Positions 2,335 through 36,085 of a stretch of 64,000 bases of DNA are shown in pieces. Every line of letters starts with the position of its first letter. The stretch's first letter is position 1. The stretch comes from Roseiflexus sp. (lineage in GTDB: Bacteria; Chloroflexota; Chloroflexia; Chloroflexales; Roseiflexaceae), in contig JANXAL010000027.1 in the NCBI GenBank assembly GCA_025062325.1, forward strand, positions 1 to 64,000, in the 5' to 3' direction. A program made the translations under genes and the position numbers. A model generated the notes under the pieces. That model was given only the letters and a program-made list of their open reading frames with translations, had not been told where the DNA came from and did not search any database.

Positions 2335-4719
2335 TCACTCATACGCCAGCACTTCGCGCACGGTGAGGCGCATCGCGTTATATGCTGGGAGCAAACTGGC
2401 GACGGCGGCGATGATCGTCACAAGGACAAGCCAGATGAGCGCGCCGCCGACCGAGAACGAGAAGCTGAGCGGCGTCTGGAAGAACGCCATGCCGACGCCG
2501 TCGGAAATCATCTTTGCAAGCGGCACGGCGACGATCATTGCCAGCGCCCAGCTCAGCGCCCCAATGATAACGCCTTCGGTGATGATGATGCCCAGCAATG
2601 CGCTGTTTGACGCGCCAATTGCCCGGAGGACGCCAATCTCGCGGGTGCGTTCGAGCACATTAATGCTCATCGTGCCCATCAACCCAAGCCCGCCGACAGT
2701 TGCCAGCAGCAGCGCCATGAAGAGCAGGAATGCGACCAGGATATTGAACAAGAGTTCATTCTGCTGTCGGAGGATTGCAAGAGTCAGCGTTGCGCCCATG
2801 CGTATGCCAACCGATTTATAGTGCGCTTCCAGTTCCCTCGCCACCCGCTCCTGGTTCGCAACATCGGGCGGGTCGATCTGTACAGTCACAGCAGCGGCGC
2901 GCCCGGTGAATCCGCGCATGCGAGCATAGTACGGGTAATGCGTGTACAGGATCGCCTGCCCGCCAATGCCGCGCACAATGCCAACCACCTTCCACTTGGT
3001 TTCGCGTCGGTCAATCTTCAGCGTTACCGTATCGCCAACCTTGATATCGGGTTCGAGACCAAGCACATTCGAGTTGATCACCAGCGCATTTTCGTCTTCG
3101 GGAAGCAACCAGCGACCTTCGAGGACGGTTGGGATGATCATGCGCGTTTCAGCGGGCACAGCATACATGGTGATCGCGTCGCTCTCGGTGTCGTTGGGGC
3201 GCACCCGGCGCACCGTATCGAATCCCCAGCTTTCAGCAGCAATCACGCCGGGGACCGCCAGCGCCTCGCGTTCGATCTGCTCCGTGCGGTAGAAGCCGTT
3301 GAAGACGCCCAGGATATGGAAATTGAAATACTTCAAGGCGTCATCCAGCGTCAGCAGCAGCGAGTTGCGCACACTGAACACCGAGATGAAGATGATCCCA
3401 GAGAGGGTAAGCGTTACCAGGGTCAACGCCAGCCGTCCTTTGCGCCGGAAGGTGTTGCGGAGCGACAGCATCAACGGACGCGAGAGGCCGTGAATGCGTT
3501 GGAGCAGATGATCGATGCGACCGCGCCCAAAGCGCCCTTTGCCCAGACCATAGCCGCTGAGCGCTTCGTGTACCGTCACGCGCGCGCCGCCGAGAACCGG
3601 GAAGGCGCCCGCCAGCAGCGGCGCCATAAGACCGACAGCAATCATGAGCAACCAGACCTCCAGCGGCATTGCCAGGCTGGTCACGTCAGTGTTCATCATT
3701 CCCGAAATGAGAATCGTGAGACCGGCAGCGACCAGATATGCCAGCGGCATCGCCAGCAGCAGCGCCAGCACGCCGAGCAGCAGCACGCTCGCCAGATACA
3801 TCACGACAACATCGCGTGTGCGTGCACCGATGGCTTTCATCACGCCGATCTGCCGCACCTGCTGGGTCAGTAGCGCCGAAATCGTGTTGATGACCAGAAA
3901 ACAACTGGCGAACAGCGAGAGCGCCCCAAGAAAACCGAGCAGCAGAAATAGCGGTTGCAGCACCTGATGCGCCGGATGGCGTCCCGGTTCCGGGAGATAG
4001 GTGAAGTAGACGGTGCGACCGCTGCTCTCGATTTTGTTCCGCACCAGCGTCGCAACCTCTGCGATATGCTCCTTGTTGAAGCGATCACCGGTCACGGTAA
4101 TGTTCAACTCATCGTAGAACTCCGGTTGACCAAGCCATTCAAGGGTCCCGAATGTCGCAAACGCATACGTCTGGTTGGTCAACGCTGCTGGCACAAGATT
4201 AGGGGTGGCGACCGTTCCGGCGATCCGCATCTGGCGCAGGGTTTCATCGGGCAGCCGGATGGTGATGGTATCGCCGATGTTTGCACCGGTCAGCGGCAGC
4301 GACGCGCGTTCGACGAGCAGGGTGCGGGGTGGCGGGGGCCAGGCGCCCTCGACTGGGAATACCTTGTTGATCCGCATCTCCTCAAAGTCGCGCACGATAT
4401 AGATTGTCATATCGCGCCACTGGTCCGGTCCGGTCTGGAGGCGCACACCGACGGCGCGCCTGCCGACGGCGTCTGCCACGCCGGGGATTCGCCGCACGGT
4501 GCGCACTAGTTCATCATCGAATACGTCGGGATAGATTGCGATGTCGGCAGGGTTGACTGCCAGGTATGCCGCGGTCATTTCGCGGGTTAGCAGCGCATTG
4601 GCGCCAGCAATCGCACCAATCGCAAACACGCCGACAGCAATCGACAGCACCACGAGAATTGTGCGAGTCTTATTGCTCCAGACATCGGCGAACACCTTGC
4701 GCCAGCGGGGTCTCAGCAT
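2335..4719 (-). CDS. ABC transporter permease, FtsX/MacB type, duplicated
   Basis: This inner-membrane protein of 794 residues has the arrangement of LolC/MacB-like permeases duplicated in one chain. An N-terminal membrane anchor (WSNKTRTILVVLSIAVGVFAIG) precedes a periplasmic MacB-PCD-like domain and three membrane helices around 265-400 (FtsX domain). The same layout then repeats, with a second anchor after RNTFRRKGRLALTL and a final FtsX domain ending LLPAYNAMRLTVREVLAYE. Such proteins work with a separate ATPase to extract lipoproteins or export substrates; no ATPase gene adjoins it here, so the partner must be encoded elsewhere. The substrate cannot be inferred. Confidence 0.9.
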   Translation of the reverse strand: MLRPRWRKVFADVWSNKTRTILVVLSIAVGVFAIGAIAGANALLTREMTAAYLAVNPADIAIYPDVFDDELVRTVRRIPGVADAVGRRAVGVRLQTGPDQWRDMTIYIVRDFEEMRINKVFPVEGAWPPPPRTLLVERASLPLTGANIGDTITIRLPDETLRQMRIAGTVATPNLVPAALTNQTYAFATFGTLEWLGQPEFYDELNITVTGDRFNKEHIAEVATLVRNKIESSGRTVYFTYLPEPGRHPAHQVLQPLFLLLGFLGALSLFASCFLVINTISALLTQQVRQIGVMKAIGARTRDVVVMYLASVLLLGVLALLLAMPLAYLVAAGLTILISGMMNTDVTSLAMPLEVWLLMIAVGLMAPLLAGAFPVLGGARVTVHEALSGYGLGKGRFGRGRIDHLLQRIHGLSRPLMLSLRNTFRRKGRLALTLVTLTLSGIIFISVFSVRNSLLLTLDDALKYFNFHILGVFNGFYRTEQIEREALAVPGVIAAESWGFDTVRRVRPNDTESDAITMYAVPAETRMIIPTVLEGRWLLPEDENALVINSNVLGLEPDIKVGDTVTLKIDRRETKWKVVGIVRGIGGQAILYTHYPYYARMRGFTGRAAAVTVQIDPPDVANQERVARELEAHYKSVGIRMGATLTLAILRQQNELLFNILVAFLLFMALLLATVGGLGLMGTMSINVLERTREIGVLRAIGASNSALLGIIITEGVIIGALSWALAMIVAVPLAKMISDGVGMAFFQTPLSFSFSVGGALIWLVLVTIIAAVASLLPAYNAMRLTVREVLAYE

Positions 4720-6855: not shown

Positions 6856-7117
6856 TGTAACCCTCACACCTCTTGCCTCGCGCCTTATGCCTCTTGCCTC
6901 GCGCCTTGCAACGGTCAACGAATGGGGAAACGAATACACGAATGGAAGCGCAGAACGAATGCGCACATTGCCTCACCTCTTGCCTCACACCTCTTGCCTC
7001 GTGCCTCGCGCCTTGCGCCTCGCGCCTCTTGCCCCATGCCTCTTGCCTCGCCCCTCACACCTCGCGCCTCTTACCTCACACCTCTTGCCTCTTGCCTCAC
7101 GCCTCGCGCCTCTTGCC
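6856..7117. repeat. Degenerate minisatellite of CCTCTTGCCTCGCGCC-type words
   Basis: The whole gap between two minus-strand genes is made of shuffled CCTCTTGCCTC, GCGCCTC and CTCACACCTC words, with one unique island at 6912-6965. The same words, inverted, recur at 52421-52462. Open frames through it are artefacts of the repeat, rich in Arg, Leu, Pro and Ser. Confidence 0.75.
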
Positions 7118-8221
7118 TCACAGCGGCGTCACTCCATGCCCGGCATCAATCGATCTCAGATCGATCATGCCGCCGCGGTAGATCATCCCACCCTCGAAGG
7201 GATTCTCTGCCAGGAACAGAGGCGTATCTAGGTCCACAAAAGTAAATCCGCCCTGACCAGCGGCGAAACAGGCAGAAACGGTCATTGCCAGGATCGACTC
7301 CACCATGCCGCCGATCATCAGGCGCAGACCAGCAACGCGCGCGACGGCGGCAATATCGAGCGCTTCGACGATACCGCACTTCATCAACTTGATATTGATC
7401 ACGTCAACTGCGCCGGTTTGCGCCAATCGTGCAACGTCGGCAGCGCTTGCGGCGCTTTCATCAGCGGCGATAGGCACGCGATGCGCGGCGGTCAGGCGAC
7501 GCAGCCCGGTTTCGTCGTCCTTCGCAACTGGTTGCTCGAACAACACTGGAACAATGCCGTGAGCGTTCAGCATGTCGAGCAAGCTGAGCGCATCATCAGC
7601 GGTATAACTGCAATTGCCATCGAGAATAAGGCGCGCGTCCGGCGCCGCATCTCTGACTGCGATGATCCGCGCCAAATCGTGTTCCATGGTACGAATCGTA
7701 GTTGTCTCTGGATTGCCAGCGCCGATCTTGATTTTGATGGTCGTGACGCCGCGCGCGACAATCTCGCGTGCGGCGCGCGCCGCTGCCGCAATGCTGCCAG
7801 TGGTGACGGTCACATCAGTTTCCAGGGCAGTTGCCGTGCCGCCGAAGAACGACCAGAGCGGCAGGCGCGCGCGGCGCGTCAACGCATCGATCAGCGCAGT
7901 TTCGATGGCACAGCGCGCCGCACCGGTCATGCCGGGGATGGCAGGGAGTGCCAGCGCGATCCGACGCCATTCACGCACGTCGGCGCCTTCGACCACGGAT
8001 TGCGCCGCCAGGATCGCTGTGCGCGTCGTTTCCTGCGTTTCGCCGTTGAATGCCGGGAATGGCGCCGCTTCACCATAGCCGCGCGTCCCGTCCGCCAGTT
8101 CGACAGTGATCAGGAGATTGCACGCCACATCCTGCGCGCCGCCAGCAATGCCAAATGGTTCGCGGAGCGGGATGTTGAGGGACGTCACATGGAGGGAGCG
8201 GATGGTTGTAGGTATAGTCAT
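7118..8221 (-). CDS. Dipeptide epimerase (L-Ala-D/L-Glu epimerase), enolase superfamily
   Basis: A complete muconate-lactonizing subgroup enolase protein. The N-terminal capping domain starts REPFGIAGG. The barrel carries the KIKIG lysine pair near residue 157, the metal-binding acids in LILDGNCSY, FEQPV and ADESA, and the second catalytic lysine in INIKLMKCGI. This KxK plus distal lysine pattern is that of dipeptide epimerases, which interconvert L-Ala-L-Glu and L-Ala-D-Glu during peptidoglycan recycling. I start at ATG 8221; GTG at 8239 is possible. It is divergent from the MurF-Alr gene across about 120 bp, which fits a shared cell-wall role. Exact dipeptide specificity cannot be read. Confidence 0.82.
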   Translation of the reverse strand: MTIPTTIRSLHVTSLNIPLREPFGIAGGAQDVACNLLITVELADGTRGYGEAAPFPAFNGETQETTRTAILAAQSVVEGADVREWRRIALALPAIPGMTGAARCAIETALIDALTRRARLPLWSFFGGTATALETDVTVTTGSIAAAARAAREIVARGVTTIKIKIGAGNPETTTIRTMEHDLARIIAVRDAAPDARLILDGNCSYTADDALSLLDMLNAHGIVPVLFEQPVAKDDETGLRRLTAAHRVPIAADESAASAADVARLAQTGAVDVINIKLMKCGIVEALDIAAVARVAGLRLMIGGMVESILAMTVSACFAAGQGGFTFVDLDTPLFLAENPFEGGMIYRGGMIDLRSIDAGHGVTPL

Positions 8222-24852: not shown

Positions 24853-24897
24853 ATCGTATCGCCCGTTTCAGGCATTGGGTCGCCCAATTGCCCCCTT

Positions 24898-25075
24898 CTC
24901 GTGAGTGTAGAGTTTTTGGGGTGCGATAGATGTTTGCCGTGTCCAGATGCCCTTTTCCCCCTCATCCCCCCTTGCCCCCTTCTTCCACAAGGGGAGAAGG
25001 GGGAAGTGGGGCGGCCTGTTGCCTGAAACGGGCGATGCAACGGAAGGGCTGGCCGGAAACATCTCCACTTGCGAG
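24898..25075. repeat. MITE-like dispersed repeat, copy 2
   Basis: The left end is CTCGTGAGTGTAGAGTTTTT and the right end CATCTCCACTTGCGAG. The interior carries the CCCCCTTCTTCC ... GGAGAAGGGGG palindrome and the shared module GGGCGATGCAACGGAAGGGC. It lies 45 bp past the thiolase stop. Confidence 0.75.
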
Positions 25076-25135
25076 GAGGCGACGACGACCACGCCAGTTT
25101 CGCACGGCCAAGCAGCGCAGCGTGCGCCGAGCGCC

Positions 25136-26707: not shown

Positions 26708-26988
26708 GGGCGCATTCTTAGGCTGGCGTATTTGTGTTCCATGACGTGGATAGATTATCTCACACAAAGGCGCACAGGTGCAACGACTCTCGCTGAGTGA
26801 GGAGTTGCGTTTGGTGACTGTCACCTGCACCTGTACTCGCCGCGTGCCGCTATCCGTGCCGCCTCTGCCGTGTTTCCACTGCGCGCCACTCTCCCCACGG
26901 GTGACGGTCACCTCTGCCAGCGTTGCATCGCCCATTTCAGGCATCAGGATGCCGTGACTCCCTTCTCCCCCCACCCCCCTCACAAGTG

Positions 26989-27154
26989 TAGATTTTTCGA
27001 CAAGCTCTTACGTTGCATCGCCCGTTTTGAGCGTCAGGATACGCAAACTCCCCCTTCTCCCCTTGTGGGAGAAGGGGGCAGGGGGGATGAGGGGGAAAAG
27101 GGTGACAGGACGCGGCAAATCCGCTTCGCATCCCAAAAAGCCTACACCTGAGAG
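26989..27154. repeat. MITE-like dispersed repeat, copy 3
   Basis: Left end CTCACAAGTGTAGATTTTTC, right end AAAAAGCCTACACCTGAG. It contains GCATCGCCCGTTTTGAGCGTCAGGA and a CTCCCCCTTCTCC ... GGGAGAAGGGGG palindrome. It is in the opposite orientation to copies 1, 2 and the one at 34171. The stretch 26708-26988 upstream has no supported gene. Confidence 0.75.
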
Positions 27155-27212
27155 TCCCCACCCCCCCGCGCGGGGGACGCAGCCAGGGAGCCGCACGGAA
27201 GGTGGCGCGCCG

Positions 27213-27832: not shown

Positions 27833-28504
27833 TTACTCCGCAAATCGATACCCCACGTGCGGTTCTGTCACGATGTATCGCGGGTGCGACGGATCAGGCT
27901 CCAGCTTCACCCGCAGCCGCCGGATCACTCCCTTCACATAGTCAGTAGCGTCGGCATACTGCGGTCCCCACACCCGCTGCACGATCTGGCGCGTCGTCAC
28001 GACGCCGTTGCGGTGCGCCACCAACTCGGCGAGCACAGCGTACTCGATTGGCGTCAGATTGACCGGCTGGCCCTGTCGCAGGACCAGCCGCCGGGTTGTG
28101 TCGATTTCCAGATCGGCGCACCGGACGGTCGCGCGATCAAGCTGTCCGCGGCGCAACACGGCGCGGATGCGCGCCAGCAGCTCGCTCAGGCGGAATGGTT
28201 TGACCAGATAATCATCAGCGCCGTGGTCGAGCGCGGTGACAATATCGGCTTCGGCGCCTTTGACGCTCACGACGATGATCGGCGTCGCACTGCGCAGGCG
28301 AATGTGCTGGCAGACAGCGATGCCATCCAGCGCTGGCATCACCAGATCGAGCAGCACCAGGTGCGGCGCCGCCTGTTCGAAGCGCTTCAGCGCCGTCTGG
28401 CCGTCGCAGGCGACTGCAACCTCATAGCCTTGCGCCTGTAATGCCGGCGTGATCGATGCGACAATGCCGGGATCATCGTCGACCACCAGAATGGATTGTT
28501 TCAT
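27833..28504 (-). CDS. OmpR/KdpE-type response regulator
   Basis: A 223-residue two-domain regulator. The receiver has the acidic pocket VVDDD, phospho-acceptor Asp 53 in LVLLDLVMP, the switch Ser 80 and Lys 102 in YLVKPF. The C-terminal winged helix (LTPIEYAVLAELVAHRNGVV ... YVKGVIRRLRVKLEPDP) is of the OmpR/PhoB class, which binds tandem direct repeats. Its ATG overlaps the kinase stop by 4 bp (ATGA), so kinase and regulator are translationally coupled. A fitting direct repeat lies upstream of the divergent amidohydrolase operon. Confidence 0.93.
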   Translation of the reverse strand: MKQSILVVDDDPGIVASITPALQAQGYEVAVACDGQTALKRFEQAAPHLVLLDLVMPALDGIAVCQHIRLRSATPIIVVSVKGAEADIVTALDHGADDYLVKPFRLSELLARIRAVLRRGQLDRATVRCADLEIDTTRRLVLRQGQPVNLTPIEYAVLAELVAHRNGVVTTRQIVQRVWGPQYADATDYVKGVIRRLRVKLEPDPSHPRYIVTEPHVGYRFAE

Positions 28505-30942
28505 ACGTGTCCGCCTTCCCCGTCCAATGCACCTGGTTCAGCAGTGTGCAGCGGCAGGGCGACCCGAAAGATGCTGCCGCCGCCTGGTCGCTCGTCGACC
28601 CAAATTCTCCCCTGATGAGCCGTGACAATCCCGTGGCAGATCGCCAGCCCGAGCCCGCTCCCGCCGCGCTGACTGCGCCGATCCCGTTCCAGCCGGTAGA
28701 AGCGGTCAAAGATGCGCTGGCGTTCAGCCAGCGGAATGCCTGGACCGCGGTCGCTGACGCTGATGATCAGATGTGTGGGGGTGGCGCATACTTCGACGGT
28801 GACCGGACCTTCCGCCGGGCCGTACTTGCAGGCGTTTTCGAGCAGATTCCACACGACCTGAGCGATGAGAGTCGGATCGAGGTACGCCAGCGGCAACGCT
28901 GATGAGATCAACATTTCCAGCGCACATCCGGCAAAGCGCTGGCGGAACGAGGCTGCCACATCATGAATGAGGGCGTCGATTTCAACCCATTCGCAATCAA
29001 GCGGCAGAGCGCCGGCCTCGATTCGGGAAAGATCCAGCAACTGATCGACGAAATGGCTCAAACGAGCGGTTTCGCGGGCAATGTTCCACAAGAGCGCACA
29101 GTGATCGCTGGCTGAGACAGCGCAATGCCGCTCGAGCAAATCGTCAACCGAGGCACGAATGGCAGTCAGTGGCGAACGGAGATCGTGTGAGACGCTGGCC
29201 AGGAAGGCACTCTTGAGACGATCCGCCTGCCGAAGCGCCTCGGTTTCGCTTGCTGCACGCCGCAGGCGAGCATTGCTCAGGGTCAGCCCCAGTTGCCGCG
29301 CCATCATCATCAGGACGTTTAGATCATCACCACTGATGGGTCGGTGTGCGCGGCTGCCGACGATCAGCGCACCAGCGCCTGGCGCGGTGAGATTCAACGG
29401 CAGTGCAACCACATCGCAATAATCGGTCCACGGCAGGAGATGCAACTCAGGAGACGCTGCGTGCTGGCGACAGAGCCAGAGCGGTCGGTCAATCGCCGTC
29501 ACAGTCTCAACCAGCGTTGCGATCTGCGCCTCGTCAATAGCCGGCGCCGCCGTGCTATGCACTGCGAGTCGATCAGCGTCTTTCAGCGCGATCAGGCCGC
29601 CATCGAGGCGAGTCAGCCTCAGAATATGGCGTACTATCGCTTCAATATGGCACATTGGATCAAGCAGCGTGCTCAGCAGCCACGCCAGTTGATTGAGCAC
29701 TTCGGTCTGCGCCGCATACGCTTGCAGATTGGCATAGAGCCGGGCGTGCCGCAACATTGCCGCCCCGTGCGCCGCCAGCGTCGCTCCTGCGTGCTGATCG
29801 CTATGAGACCACGGCATCGCTGGCAGGCGCAGAACCAGTACAACGCCGCCTCCTGTGTGCAGCGGAAAACCGGCTAATGCGCCGCCAATTGCTTGGATAG
29901 CTCCTGAATGCAGAGGAGCGAAATCAACAAACGGCTCTGGACGCCTCCCCCAGGCGAGGATCGTCGGATCGCACGCGACAGCGCGCAGTGCCGCCAGCGC
30001 TCGCTCGCCATCGCTGCCTGGCTTTGCCCAGAAGTAGGGCGCCAGCGCAGCAGCGGGGGCATCTTCGACCAGTGCCACGCCTGCAGCATCGAGCAGCCAT
30101 CCCATCTGCCCGGCGATCACCAATGGCGTCTGTGTCGGGTCGGACACAGTGCTGACCATGCGCACCGCCAGCGCCAATCGTTCAATCCGGTCGCAGCGAT
30201 GATCCACTGCGACCGCATGCGAACGTGACGGCGACCAGCCATGGACGAAGCGCGACCGCACCGGCTTCCTGACCTGTTCCAGTCGATAGCGCCGTTGCAC
30301 ATCCGCTGCTGCCGCCGCCACGATGCCGGTCAGCAATGGCGAGGCCAGCCGATAATCCCCGGTAATATCGATCACGCCGATCAACCTGCCGTCGTCAGGG
30401 TGGAACACGGGCGCAGCCGTGCATGTGACATCCTGCCAGCCAGCGCAGTAATGCTCAGCGCCAACCAGTTGCACGACCTGTTTCGTCGCCAGCGCCACGC
30501 CGATGGCATTCGTACCGGCAGAGGCTTCGCTCCAGTTGCTGCCAGGCAACAGACCCTTGCGGGCCAGACGCCGCTGACAGGCACTGTCCCCGGTCACGTC
30601 CAGCAAGGTGCCTTCCGCATCGCTCACAGCTACCACATATCCGGCGCTGCCAAGCGTCGCTTTCAACTGTACGATCACCGGACGAGCGGCGTCGAGCAGA
30701 GAGGCGTTCTGTTCGCGCAGCCAGTGCAATTGCAGGTCGTTCGGCACAGCGAAGCGCGCCAGATTCAAACTGGCATCAACCGCCAGCATCCGACAACGGC
30801 GCCACGAGTCGCGGATGATGGTCCGCAGCACCGAGAGATCGGCGTTGTGGTTGCAGAGAAAACGTTCACGCAGCACGGCGACATGCCTGACGAATGCGTC
30901 AAGATCGCCAGCGACATCGGTCTGCAACGGTGCTCTGGTCAT
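28501..30942 (-). CDS. Sensor histidine kinase with AcoR-type GAF input domain
   Basis: The 813-residue protein is soluble, without membrane segments. Residues 1-230 resemble the input half of AcoR-type sigma-54 activators: SWRRC, a GAF domain with EASAGTNAIGVALAT, GAEHYCAGWQDVTCTAAPV and IGVIDITG. A middle region of about 350 residues looks like one or two more GAF domains. The kinase core has the H-box SVSHDLRSPLTAI (His about 586), then N-box LLENACKYGP and G-boxes SDRGPGIP and GGSGLGLAI. In AcoR-like proteins this input domain senses small metabolites such as acetoin or alcohols. It is divergent from the operon at 31188. Confidence 0.9.
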   Translation of the reverse strand: MTRAPLQTDVAGDLDAFVRHVAVLRERFLCNHNADLSVLRTIIRDSWRRCRMLAVDASLNLARFAVPNDLQLHWLREQNASLLDAARPVIVQLKATLGSAGYVVAVSDAEGTLLDVTGDSACQRRLARKGLLPGSNWSEASAGTNAIGVALATKQVVQLVGAEHYCAGWQDVTCTAAPVFHPDDGRLIGVIDITGDYRLASPLLTGIVAAAAADVQRRYRLEQVRKPVRSRFVHGWSPSRSHAVAVDHRCDRIERLALAVRMVSTVSDPTQTPLVIAGQMGWLLDAAGVALVEDAPAAALAPYFWAKPGSDGERALAALRAVACDPTILAWGRRPEPFVDFAPLHSGAIQAIGGALAGFPLHTGGGVVLVLRLPAMPWSHSDQHAGATLAAHGAAMLRHARLYANLQAYAAQTEVLNQLAWLLSTLLDPMCHIEAIVRHILRLTRLDGGLIALKDADRLAVHSTAAPAIDEAQIATLVETVTAIDRPLWLCRQHAASPELHLLPWTDYCDVVALPLNLTAPGAGALIVGSRAHRPISGDDLNVLMMMARQLGLTLSNARLRRAASETEALRQADRLKSAFLASVSHDLRSPLTAIRASVDDLLERHCAVSASDHCALLWNIARETARLSHFVDQLLDLSRIEAGALPLDCEWVEIDALIHDVAASFRQRFAGCALEMLISSALPLAYLDPTLIAQVVWNLLENACKYGPAEGPVTVEVCATPTHLIISVSDRGPGIPLAERQRIFDRFYRLERDRRSQRGGSGLGLAICHGIVTAHQGRIWVDERPGGGSIFRVALPLHTAEPGALDGEGGHV

Positions 30943-31187: not shown

Positions 31188-32234
31188 ATGTACCGCACTG
31201 CCGATGGTCGGGACATCTTTGTCATCGATGCCCACACCCACCTGTGGGACGCCAGCCCGGAAAATCAACGCGGCAAGCTCGGCAAAGGCTGGATCGATTG
31301 TTTCTATGCCTACCACAAGAATCTGTCGCCGCCTGAGAAAGTCTGGACCCTCGAACACTATCAGCGTTATTCGGTGGAAGACATGGCCCGCGATCTGTTC
31401 GTCGAGGGCTACGTCGATATGTGCATCATGCAGAGCACCAATCTCTTCGATTTTTACCACACGGGTTTCAACCCGATTGAGCGCAATGCGCAGTTGAAGG
31501 AAGCCTTTCCCGAGCGGGTTATTCTTAACGGTTCCTTCGACCCGCGCCACGGTGAAGATGGTCCCCTCGGATTGAACGCGCTTCGCCGTGCGAAGGAGCA
31601 GTACGACATCAAGGGCGTCAAGCTGTACACTGCTGAGTGGCATAATGGCTCGCGCGGCTGGAAACTGAACGATCCCGCCGCCTATCCGTTTTTCGAGGAG
31701 TGTGAACGTCTCGGCATCACCAACATTCACATACATAAAGGTCCCACCATCTGGCCGCTTGATCGCGATTCGTTCGATGTCGCCGACGTGGATTATGTCG
31801 CCACCGACTTCCCTGGCTTGACCTTCATCGTCGAACATTGCGGCCTGCCGCGACTGGAAGACTTCTGCTGGATCGCCACGCAAGAGTCCAACGTGTGGGG
31901 CGGTCTGGCGGTGGCGATGCCATTCATCCACTCGCGCCCGCGCTATTTTGCCGAAATCATGGCCAATCTGCTCTACTGGCTCGGTCCCGACAAGCTGACC
32001 TTTGCCAGCGACTATGCACTCTGGACGCCGGGCTGGCTGGTTGAACGGTTCATGGCCTTCGAACTGCCCGAGGATCTGGAGGCGGAGTACGGCGTGACGT
32101 TGACCATGGAAACGAAGGAGAAGATCCTGGGACTGAACGCGGCCCGGCTCTATGGCATCGATGTTGAAGCGAAGAAAGAGCAGTTGCGGGCGATGCCGGT
32201 CGTGCTGGACGGCGCCGCGCCGACTGTTGCGTGA
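31188..32234 (+). CDS. Amidohydrolase family protein of the type found in propane monooxygenase clusters
   Basis: A 348-residue TIM-barrel metal hydrolase-like protein: the HxH motif in IDAHTHLWD, histidines in NIHIHKGPTIW and IVEHCGLPR, and the acidic metal ligand in FASDYALW, matching the amidohydrolase-2 family. GGAGGAG lies 4-5 nt before the ATG. In binuclear-iron propane/acetone monooxygenase clusters of actinobacteria, genes of this family follow the hydroxylase subunits and are thought to help assemble or support the enzyme. Here it leads a three-gene operon without those subunits. A catalytic role on an amide is equally possible. Confidence 0.88.
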   Translation: MYRTADGRDIFVIDAHTHLWDASPENQRGKLGKGWIDCFYAYHKNLSPPEKVWTLEHYQRYSVEDMARDLFVEGYVDMCIMQSTNLFDFYHTGFNPIERNAQLKEAFPERVILNGSFDPRHGEDGPLGLNALRRAKEQYDIKGVKLYTAEWHNGSRGWKLNDPAAYPFFEECERLGITNIHIHKGPTIWPLDRDSFDVADVDYVATDFPGLTFIVEHCGLPRLEDFCWIATQESNVWGGLAVAMPFIHSRPRYFAEIMANLLYWLGPDKLTFASDYALWTPGWLVERFMAFELPEDLEAEYGVTLTMETKEKILGLNAARLYGIDVEAKKEQLRAMPVVLDGAAPTVA

Positions 32235-32243
32235 GGAGGGGCG

Positions 32244-33035
32244 ATGACCGCGCCTGCCCTTGATGATATCTACCGTGCGCTTGCCGAAGTCTATGATCCG
32301 GAGCTGGACGCGCCGATCACCGAACTGGGTTTCGTCAACGAGGTGCGCCTCGATGGCGGTCATGTGACGGTGCGCTACACAGTGCCGACGTTCTGGTGCG
32401 CGCCCAACTTCGTCTTTATGATGTCGCACGACATTCGCACCGAAGTTGGGCGCGTGCCGGGCGTGACCCGGGTGACCGTGCTCGTGCAGAACAACTGTAT
32501 GGAGGACGAGGTCAACGCCGGAGTCAACGCCGGGCGCAGCTTTGCCGACACGTTCCCGAATGATGTCGATCAGAACGCTGATCTGGAGACGCTGCGACAC
32601 ACCTTTACGGTGAAAGGATTCCTTGCCCGGCAAGACGCGCTCCTGCGCCGGATGCGACAGGCTGGCTTGCCTGATGAAACCACCCTCGATCTGCGGATTG
32701 GCGACGTTCATCCGCAAGGAGAGGACGTGATAGTGCATCTCTCGACAGCGCTGGCGCCGCTGCGCGTTCCGCTGGCTGCCGCTGATCTGACCCGCTACCT
32801 GCATAAACGTCGCCGATTACACCTAGCAACCGATCCGGGCGCCCGGCTCTTCACTACCAGCGATGGTCAGCCTATCGCTGCCGTCGATCTGGCTGCGTAC
32901 CTGCGCTATTCACGCACTGCCCGGCTCAATATCGCCTTCAATACCAGCCTGTGCGAAGGCTTGTTGCGCACGCAGTTCTTCCCTGAGCGCCAGCACGATT
33001 ATTCCAGCATTGGCGACCGCCTAATGATTGGATAG
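32244..33035 (+). CDS. MIP18/DUF59-domain protein, putative metal-cluster assembly factor
   Basis: The first 100 residues have the MIP18/DUF59 pattern DPELDAPITELGFVNEVRLDG, followed by TVPTFWCAPNFVF and VLVQNNCMEDEVNAG, whose cysteines could bind metal. About 160 further residues of no recognised family follow, including repeated segments on radical-free helices such as GFLARQDALLRRM. DUF59 proteins (SufT, PaaD, MIP18) aid iron-sulfur or di-iron cofactor assembly. The gene starts 9 bp after the amidohydrolase stop with GAGGAGGGG, the order also seen in propane monooxygenase clusters. Confidence 0.85.
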   Translation: MTAPALDDIYRALAEVYDPELDAPITELGFVNEVRLDGGHVTVRYTVPTFWCAPNFVFMMSHDIRTEVGRVPGVTRVTVLVQNNCMEDEVNAGVNAGRSFADTFPNDVDQNADLETLRHTFTVKGFLARQDALLRRMRQAGLPDETTLDLRIGDVHPQGEDVIVHLSTALAPLRVPLAAADLTRYLHKRRRLHLATDPGARLFTTSDGQPIAAVDLAAYLRYSRTARLNIAFNTSLCEGLLRTQFFPERQHDYSSIGDRLMIG

Positions 33036-33048
33036 AGAGGACACGACG

Positions 33049-34092
33049 ATGCGCGCTGCCCGTCTTCACGAATATGATGAACACCTGAACGTCCAGTTGC
33101 AACTTGAAGATGTGCCGCTGCCTGTCATCACCAAACCCGGCGACGTCATCATCCGGATTGGCGCCGCCGGTCTCTGCCGCACTGACCTGCACATTATGGA
33201 GGGCGTCTGGAAGGATATTCAGGACCCGAATCGCACGCTGCTGCCCTACATCCTAGGTCACGAAAACGCTGGTTGGGTCGAAGAGGTCGGTCCAGGGGTG
33301 ACCACGGTTAAGGTCGGCGATCCGGTCATCTGCCACCCGCTGCGTTCGTGCGGCGTCTGTCTGGGCTGTCGGCGCGGCGAGGATATGTACTGCGAGAACG
33401 GCAGTTTTCCCGGTCTCAACTGCGACGGCGGCTTTGCCGAATATATGCTGACCAACGAGCGTGCGCTGATCAAGCTCAATCCGAATGTCATGCCGGTTGA
33501 TGTCGCACCGCTGGCTGACGCCGGCATCACCGCCTACCGCGTAGCGAAGAAGGCGGCGCGGCGGCTCAATCCTGGACAGTACTGCGTCATTCTTGGCGTC
33601 GGCGGTCTCGGCCACATTGCGCTGCAAGCGGTGCGCGAGCTGTGCGGTGCGCGCATTATCGCCATTGATCGCGCCGAAGGCGCCCGCGCGCTCGCCCGCG
33701 ACCTGGGCGCCCACTACGTGCTCGACGGTGGCGACAACATCGTGCAGGAGGTGAAAGAACTCACCCGCGGTGGAGCGCATGTAGTGATTGACTTCGTTGG
33801 CGAACTGGGCGCTGAACAGGTCTCATGGCAGATGCTGCGCCAGGGCGGCGTCCATTTCGTGGTCGGCTACGGCGGTACAATCCACGTGCCCACCGTGCAT
33901 ATGATTATCACTGAGATCGCCATCGAAGGCAGTCTGGTAGGCAATTACGTCGAACTGGTCGAGTTGATGGAACTGAACGCCGAGGGGCGGGTGAAGCTGC
34001 ATGGCCAGCAGTATCGGCTGGAGCAGATCAACCAGGCAATCGAGGATTTCAAAAACCATCGAATTATCGGGCGCGGCGTGATTGTGCCGTGA
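33049..34092 (+). CDS. Zinc-dependent alcohol dehydrogenase
   Basis: A 347-residue medium-chain dehydrogenase. The catalytic zinc ligands fall in GLCRTDLH and GHENAGWVEE, and the structural zinc site is the four-cysteine group CGVCLGCRRGEDMYC. The Rossmann fold ILGVGGLGHIALQAV is followed by IIAIDRA, where the aspartate favours NAD over NADP. It would oxidise a small primary or secondary alcohol. The start at 33049 has GAGAGG 8 nt upstream, 13 bp after the DUF59 gene. A zinc alcohol dehydrogenase is also a standard member of propane-oxidation clusters. Confidence 0.92.
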   Translation: MRAARLHEYDEHLNVQLQLEDVPLPVITKPGDVIIRIGAAGLCRTDLHIMEGVWKDIQDPNRTLLPYILGHENAGWVEEVGPGVTTVKVGDPVICHPLRSCGVCLGCRRGEDMYCENGSFPGLNCDGGFAEYMLTNERALIKLNPNVMPVDVAPLADAGITAYRVAKKAARRLNPGQYCVILGVGGLGHIALQAVRELCGARIIAIDRAEGARALARDLGAHYVLDGGDNIVQEVKELTRGGAHVVIDFVGELGAEQVSWQMLRQGGVHFVVGYGGTIHVPTVHMIITEIAIEGSLVGNYVELVELMELNAEGRVKLHGQQYRLEQINQAIEDFKNHRIIGRGVIVP

Positions 34093-35780: not shown

Positions 35781-35814
35781 ATGTACAGCCTGGTAGAAGA
35801 AAGGGGCGAGGGGA

Positions 35815-36085
35815 TGAAGAGGAAAAAGGAGCGTCAGGATGCACAGTCTCCCCCTGCTCCCCTCGTGGGAGAAGGGGGTCGGGGGGATGAGGGGAACACA
35901 GGCATCAGAATGCGCAATCTCCCCCTGCTCCCCTTGTGGGAGAAGGGGGTCGGGGGGATGAGGGGGAACAAGCGCGTCGGGATGCACAAACTCCCCCTTC
36001 GCCCCTCGTGGGAAAAGGGGGTAGGGGGGATGAGAGGGAACAAGCGCGTCAGGATGCGCACCCGCCCCTTTCTCCTCCGGTAGGA
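35815..36085. repeat. Tandem array of about 73-bp palindromic repeat units
   Basis: Four units, each opening with a CGTCAGGATGC-type word and holding CTCCCCCTGCTCCC ... GGGAGAAGGGGG and GGGGGATGAGGGG, run head to tail from about 35829. They are the interior module of the MITE-like repeat without its ends. The remainder to 36396 contains a strong ribosome site (GGAGGTGAG before ATG 36204) opening a 95-residue frame that overlaps the start of the next pseudogene; it shows no family features. Confidence 0.75.

Follow-up and report, generated by a model that had tools for sequence, protein, structure and literature searches.

We propose that three adjacent genes in the window (the whole 64-kb stretch of Roseiflexus DNA analysed here), which encode an amidohydrolase (AMH), a long DUF59 protein and a zinc alcohol dehydrogenase (ADH), form a self-contained inducible catabolic module of an alcohol/ketone type, in which ADH would work with a DUF59-dependent AMH, and which propane-monooxygenase (prm) clusters have recruited or share. 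We put the probability of this reading at about 0.5. On this best explanation the operon is not what remains of a propane-monooxygenase cluster.

The operon, its regulators and the missing hydroxylase

The three genes are arranged head to tail on the plus strand with gaps of 9 and 13 bases, and a Shine-Dalgarno-like sequence is present before each of them. AMH (31188–32234, 348 aa) matches PF04909 (1.2e-43) and belongs to the type with a His-Lys motif (H183-K184, HK-type in the following), the long DUF59 protein (32244–33035, 263 aa) has PF01883 in residues 7–79 (1.6e-13), and ADH (33049–34092, 347 aa) is an NAD-type medium-chain enzyme with PF08240/PF00107, for which our reading of the sequence makes the ATG at 33049 preferable to the TTG at 33028 given in the list of open reading frames. 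The profiles, coordinates and short gaps bear out the single tight operon seen in the preliminary description of this DNA, and its order is, as was stated there, that of genes downstream of prmABCD: Rhodococcus prm clusters have AMH-DUF59-ADH and then GroEL, and the published gene order agrees (PMC4428276). Their association exceeds chance, as these genes adjoin one another in dozens of genomes from two domains. A scan for promoter and terminator consensus sequences gave no signal above shuffles.

Divergent from the trio, on the minus strand, are a sensor histidine kinase identified by Pfam (28501–30942), which has an N-terminal GAF sensor region, and its partner, an OmpR-type response regulator (27833–28504, PF00072 and PF00486). 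Residues ∼1–220 of the kinase share homology with the N-terminal sensor region that sigma-54 regulators have in prm clusters and in some hydroxylase-free loci (23–37% identity, 1e-20 to 1e-29), and over its full length the kinase is 41% identical to that beside prmABCD in genome G251; the response regulator is kept beside the kinase in Chloroflexus, in Chloroflexales bacterium ZM16-3 and in G251. These similarities suggest that the kinase reads a small-molecule signal related to that of the prm regulators, via a two-component system. Other activators, too, have a GAF-containing sensor architecture of this kind.

The monooxygenase subunits and GroEL had been reported as missing from the window, and indeed tblastn gave no match there to PrmA, PrmB, PrmC, PrmD or GroEL. 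A genome-wide search for a PrmA/MimA-type enzyme, which had been proposed as a check and was run with the hydroxylase profile PF02332, gave zero matches across this 96.8%-complete Roseiflexus-genus assembly, with a profile that works in the phylum, being positive in 7 of 301 Chloroflexota genomes. No AurF-type oxygenase (PF11583) was found genome-wide, and neither was PF02406, a profile for which no control genome gave a match either. Nor did PF02332 have a match in any of the six sampled Chloroflexus genomes that carry the operon, among them the closed genome G118, a single contig of 5,258,541 bases. More broadly, any PF02332 is present in only 3 of 30 Chloroflexota genomes with a long DUF59 protein, and a close PrmA (77%) in ZM16-3 only. 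Hence the suggested dependence of a di-iron hydroxylase, encoded in another part of the genome, on the trio, which would mature or support it, is very improbable here, and for Chloroflexus the closed genome G118 largely refutes it; the trio is, moreover, conserved long-term without a hydroxylase, and most deep lineages lack one. What speaks for such a dependence is the orthology and gene order common with prm clusters, together with two genomes: ZM16-3, in which prmABCD-groEL without an AMH or DUF59 gene of its own lies ∼7–8 kb from a full unit of kinase-regulator pair and AMH-DUF59-ADH, and G251, in which prmABCD is followed by AMH and the homologous kinase/regulator pair is divergent from prmA.

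Phylogeny, distribution and origin

The orthology with prm/mim accessory genes that had been implied, with alignment named as the deciding check, holds for both proteins: window AMH is 55–63% identical to prm-cluster amidohydrolases, far above other amidohydrolases, and window DUF59 is 30–38% identical to the long DUF59 proteins of prm clusters. We built AMH trees of 117 rows and of 53 rows rooted on paralogues, and one DUF59 tree, from a sample of loci that leans toward close relatives of the window. In both AMH trees the window falls in a Chloroflexota clade with zero prm-embedded members (support 93/92 in the rooted one), and in the DUF59 tree it likewise falls in a Chloroflexota clade free of prm-embedded sequences (99/96 for a five-row set, 83/85 for an eight-row set). 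Placement of both proteins outside the prm-embedded clades, which the preliminary description had itself named as counting against its accessory reading, weakens that reading; the other option raised there, an independent job for the trio, is supported by the trees, by hydroxylase-free genomes and by conservation.

Prm-embedded AMH sequences occur in Pseudomonadota and, separately, in Rhodococcus, and this label needs at least four changes on the tree, whose deepest forks form a polytomy. As hydroxylase-free loci make up the outgroup and most deep lineages, the simpler history on these polytomous trees would be that prm clusters recruited the AMH-DUF59 pair, and prmABCD has likely also been lost in some lineages, in Acidiphilium and possibly others. 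The reverse history, in which an ancestor carried the kinase-regulator pair divergent from prmABCD-AMH-DUF59-ADH, and the Chloroflexus/Roseiflexus lineage then lost prmABCD by deletion but kept the trio for alcohols or ketones from outside, is rather unlikely. G251 has just the window arrangement plus prmABCD, the polytomy allows either ancestral state, and comparison of Acidiphilium with the locus L147 looks like a real prm loss within Alphaproteobacteria; however, the outgroup families are hydroxylase-free, as are most deep lineages within the ingroup (haloarchaea, Bacillota, Thermomicrobia, Thermoflexus and Ktedonobacteria), a prm-embedded AMH is found nowhere in the Chloroflexota clade, and the G251 AMH fragment has an identity of only 43%. 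The present function would be the same under this history as under the module that we prefer; the two differ in history alone.

AMH and a long DUF59 gene occur together, in most loci along with ADH, and with no PrmABCD in the fetched stretch, in Chloroflexus, Thermogemmatispora, Ktedonobacterales, Thermoflexus, Thermomicrobium, haloarchaea, Bacillota, Acidiphilium and a small number of other Alphaproteobacteria; the hydroxylase search was genome-wide for the Chloroflexota of the 301-genome sample and covered the fetched neighbourhood for most of the others. The comparison of neighbourhoods across Chloroflexota that had been recommended thus shows a trio that is conserved and mostly hydroxylase-free. 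The earlier view that such a trio would be new in an anoxygenic phototroph was too narrow, as hydroxylase-free trios span Chloroflexota, Thermomicrobia, Bacillota, Alphaproteobacteria and haloarchaea. In this comparison of hydroxylase-free neighbourhoods, no gene besides the trio and regulators recurs across clades. Within single clades there are local recurrences, namely an amidase in L113, L121 and L126, a molybdenum hydroxylase in Thermoflexus and L073, and an ABC-type component in Thermomicrobium/Bacillota.

The trio is clearly under purifying selection. With dS near saturation, so that the values are approximate, dN/dS was ∼0.02–0.05 for AMH and ADH and 0.05–0.11 for DUF59; between the window and Chloroflexus, dN was 0.03–0.06 for AMH and ADH, at a dS of 1.0–2.5 or saturated, and 0.15–0.19 for DUF59. 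A non-functional relic of a decayed prm cluster is ruled out by the very low dN/dS.

The operon and its regulators belong to an island (27.8–34.1 kb) with 66–79% nucleotide identity to Chloroflexus and no match in the closed same-genus genome G166, whereas positions 1–24850 of the window match G166, mostly at 76–84% nucleotide identity. Because only the island is Chloroflexus-like and positions 1–24850 are Roseiflexus-like, a misbinned Chloroflexus contig is ruled out. Intergenic repeats common to G166 flank the island on both sides, and among 26 genomes of the family this one only has the AMH orthologue; several relatives have a 37% identical AMH paralogue paired with a short DUF59 gene. The island was likely transferred between mat phototrophs, to judge from these sequence comparisons, and inheritance with many losses is less favoured.

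A proposed DUF59 partner of the amidohydrolase

The DUF59 protein appears to belong to the adjacent amidohydrolase rather than to an oxygenase. A DUF59 gene also adjoins paralogous amidohydrolases, 28–38% identical to window AMH, of Natronorubrum, Haloarcula, Natrinema, Sphingopyxis, Bradyrhizobium, Rhodococcus oxybenzonivorans, Streptomyces, Nonomuraea and Roseiflexus itself, and the stretches read around them contained no oxygenase. In Shinella and Pararhizobium a protein with a NifU-like CxxC domain fills the DUF59 slot beside the amidohydrolase, and three amidohydrolases at 24–26% identity have no DUF59 neighbour. K145, Y147, H183-K184 and H217 are invariant in the paired amidohydrolases. 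Among PF04909 proteins of Chloroflexales relatives, a DUF59 gene adjoined all 4 that have the His-Lys motif and none of the 33 that lack it; these counts include a few overlapping copies and related sequences and are thus to be read as an association, not a p-value. Window AMH has both marks of the class that we propose, the H183-K184 motif and an adjacent gene of the DUF59/NifU kind.

The likely metal-site residues of AMH are H16, H18, K145, H183, H217 and D275. Two residues of the classical metal site, H16 and D275, are kept in prm-type members and missing from the paralogues. With this first His and last Asp lost and H18, K145, H183-K184 and H217 kept, the HK-type paralogues would have a centre unlike the classical zinc site. 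The AF2 model of AMH (pLDDT 92.8) is a TIM barrel with its closest fold in 3irs (Z 27.2), followed by PF04909 decarboxylases and ACMSD; 3irs is BB4693, an uncharacterised protein. No curated NCBIfam family fits AMH. An iron-sulfur cluster in AMH itself is doubtful because invariant cysteines are few, with C172 and C227 invariant within the prm type only.

The DUF59 protein has, at its N terminus, a DUF59/MIP18 domain with invariant C52; its C-terminal domain is mostly helical and has another invariant cysteine, C237. In its AF2 model (pLDDT 94) the N-terminal domain matches 3cq2 and CIAO2B (6tbl), and the C-terminal domain, searched as part of the whole model, had no convincing Foldseek match in the PDB. 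The protein scored below the equivalog cut-offs of the SufT and PaaD families (35 versus 143.4 bits for TIGR02945, 23.1 versus 202.6 for TIGR03406 and 22.7 versus 108.15 for TIGR02159). DUF59 proteins such as SufT help many Fe-S proteins (PMC4982691), and accordingly one could regard the long DUF59 protein as a factor of general Fe-S assembly or of a different iron protein, with AMH and ADH as merely co-regulated catabolic enzymes. We find this quite unlikely, because DUF59 strictly adjoins HK-type amidohydrolases across paralogous families whose neighbours otherwise differ, and because the long form lies so far below those cut-offs and has a C-terminal domain, with invariant C237, of its own.

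Proposed function and comparison with known systems

In the module that we propose, the GAF domain of the divergent kinase would, from its homology, sense a small alcohol, ketol or ketone and signal to the response regulator. The zinc ADH, as its family suggests, would then use NAD+ to oxidise an alcohol that is probably small or secondary. HK-type AMH, of which the fold is modelled and the reaction is putative, would catalyse a hydrolysis, hydration or decarboxylation in this pathway. The DUF59 protein would load or repair a metal or iron-sulfur cofactor of AMH, a role to which its exclusive co-occurrence and its replacement by NifU in two genomes point. Substrates, cofactor and the order of these steps are all putative, and DUF59 may instead deliver plain iron, or serve a target other than AMH. 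In prm hosts, PrmABCD would supply this module with an alcohol or ketone. For AMH and DUF59 encoded inside prm clusters, a role in maturation of the hydroxylase is possible; PaaD is a precedent for a DUF59 protein serving a di-iron oxygenase. In Actinomycetospora on 2-hydroxyisobutyrate, the Mim-cluster amidohydrolase made up 3.2% of the proteome, ADH 6.1% and MimA 1.8% (PMC7176365), an abundance that fits a catalytic enzyme rather than a trace chaperone.

Tentatively, HK-type amidohydrolases may represent a new superfamily branch whose cofactor, iron or iron-sulfur, is inserted by a dedicated DUF59/NifU partner, and the pair may have been borrowed by propane-monooxygenase clusters. If so, DUF59 in prm clusters is not a hydroxylase maturation factor, and metal-cofactor delivery by DUF59/NifU proteins would be extended to an enzyme superfamily rarely tied to iron-sulfur assembly. 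Reports so far describe the AMH and DUF59 genes of prm/mim clusters as conserved neighbours to which no role has been given. Should they prove to be an older module in their own right, efforts to produce propane or acetone monooxygenases in foreign hosts should handle the pair as an enzyme together with the loader of its cofactor, instead of as folding factors for the hydroxylase. Chloroflexus carries the trio without a hydroxylase and is a natural background for measuring the activity of the module itself. The neighbours of prm genes were already known (PMC4428276); what appears to be new is the hydroxylase-free trio and the coupling of DUF59/NifU to an HK-type amidohydrolase, for neither of which we found a description in open-licence papers.

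Compared with the prm/mim clusters of group 5 SDIMO (PMC4428276, PMC7176365), the window has orthologous AMH, long DUF59 and zinc ADH genes in the Rhodococcus order, but lacks PrmA, PrmB, PrmC, PrmD and GroEL/MimG; its regulators are a kinase/response-regulator pair in place of a sigma-54 activator, with an N-terminal sensor region common to both. The loci of Thermomicrobium roseum, Thermogemmatispora, Thermoflexus and haloarchaea are like the window in the three genes and in having no adjacent hydroxylase, but they have IclR or other regulators, and in Thermomicrobium and Thermoflexus the order is DUF59-AMH-ADH. AMH shares its TIM-barrel fold (Z 20–27) with BB4693 and with PF04909 decarboxylases and hydrolases such as dihydroxybenzoate decarboxylases, 5-carboxyvanillate decarboxylase and ACMSD, whose metal-ligand positions (HxH, H, H, D) are kept in prm-type AMH; however, it is only 12–20% identical to these enzymes and has the invariant K145, Y147 and H183-K184 and the DUF59/NifU neighbour. 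Window DUF59 has the N-terminal fold and invariant cysteine (C52) of SufT, PaaD and CIAO2B, and differs from them by a helical C-terminal domain of ∼180 residues, by the invariant C237 and by an amidohydrolase as operon partner. Finally, the closest solved relative of ADH is the Aeropyrum pernix enzyme (1h2b, 6e-101, full-length), and ADH has the catalytic and structural zinc motifs common to this and other medium-chain zinc ADHs, whereas its genomic partners differ from theirs.

Flanks of the Chloroflexus-like island and its kinase

The Chloroflexus-like island (27.8-34.1 kb) is flanked by short intergenic repeats, at 24890-25080, 26977-27155 and 35811-36048, and numerous copies of these are present in G166, a closed genome of the same genus. 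The divergent GAF-containing sensor histidine kinase of the island (28501..30942, minus strand) has a counterpart in Chloroflexus, which in one metagenome bin is broken across two frames (L083, 6356-8500 region) and is therefore truncated or misassembled.

Amidohydrolase variants, paralogues and partners

The metal-site motif HTH is replaced by HTG in the amidohydrolase beside the propane-monooxygenase genes prmABCD of genome G251 (L163, 1-369), and by HVA in that of Peribacillus (L034, 8882-9904); a ligand of the metal may be missing from certain amidohydrolases of this type. The DUF59 partner also varies: a NifU-like CxxC domain protein stands in for it in Shinella and Pararhizobium (L195, 3511-3804; L191, about 3514-3840), an apparent exchange between Fe-S carriers.

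Roseiflexus genomes carry a second amidohydrolase with 37-38% identity to that of the window (L184, L185 and L186; in L185, contig C66 of genome G000, at 7016-8014), and it adjoins a gene resembling a PLP-type decarboxylase. A short DUF59 gene immediately precedes it in L186, and in genome G150 (L071) such a pair directly adjoins the long trio of amidohydrolase, 263-aa DUF59 protein and zinc alcohol dehydrogenase.

Neighbouring genes at related loci

Near the trio at loci free of the monooxygenase, Thermoflexus-type genomes and G084 contain a molybdenum hydroxylase gene of the aldehyde oxidase/xanthine dehydrogenase family (L149, L159, L166, L167 and L073). An amidase gene recurs near the amidohydrolase-DUF59 pair in two Alphaproteobacteria and one Bacillaceae genome (L113, L121 and L126), accompanied in two of the three by isochorismatase-type or cyclase genes, hinting at amide or ureide substrates at these loci.
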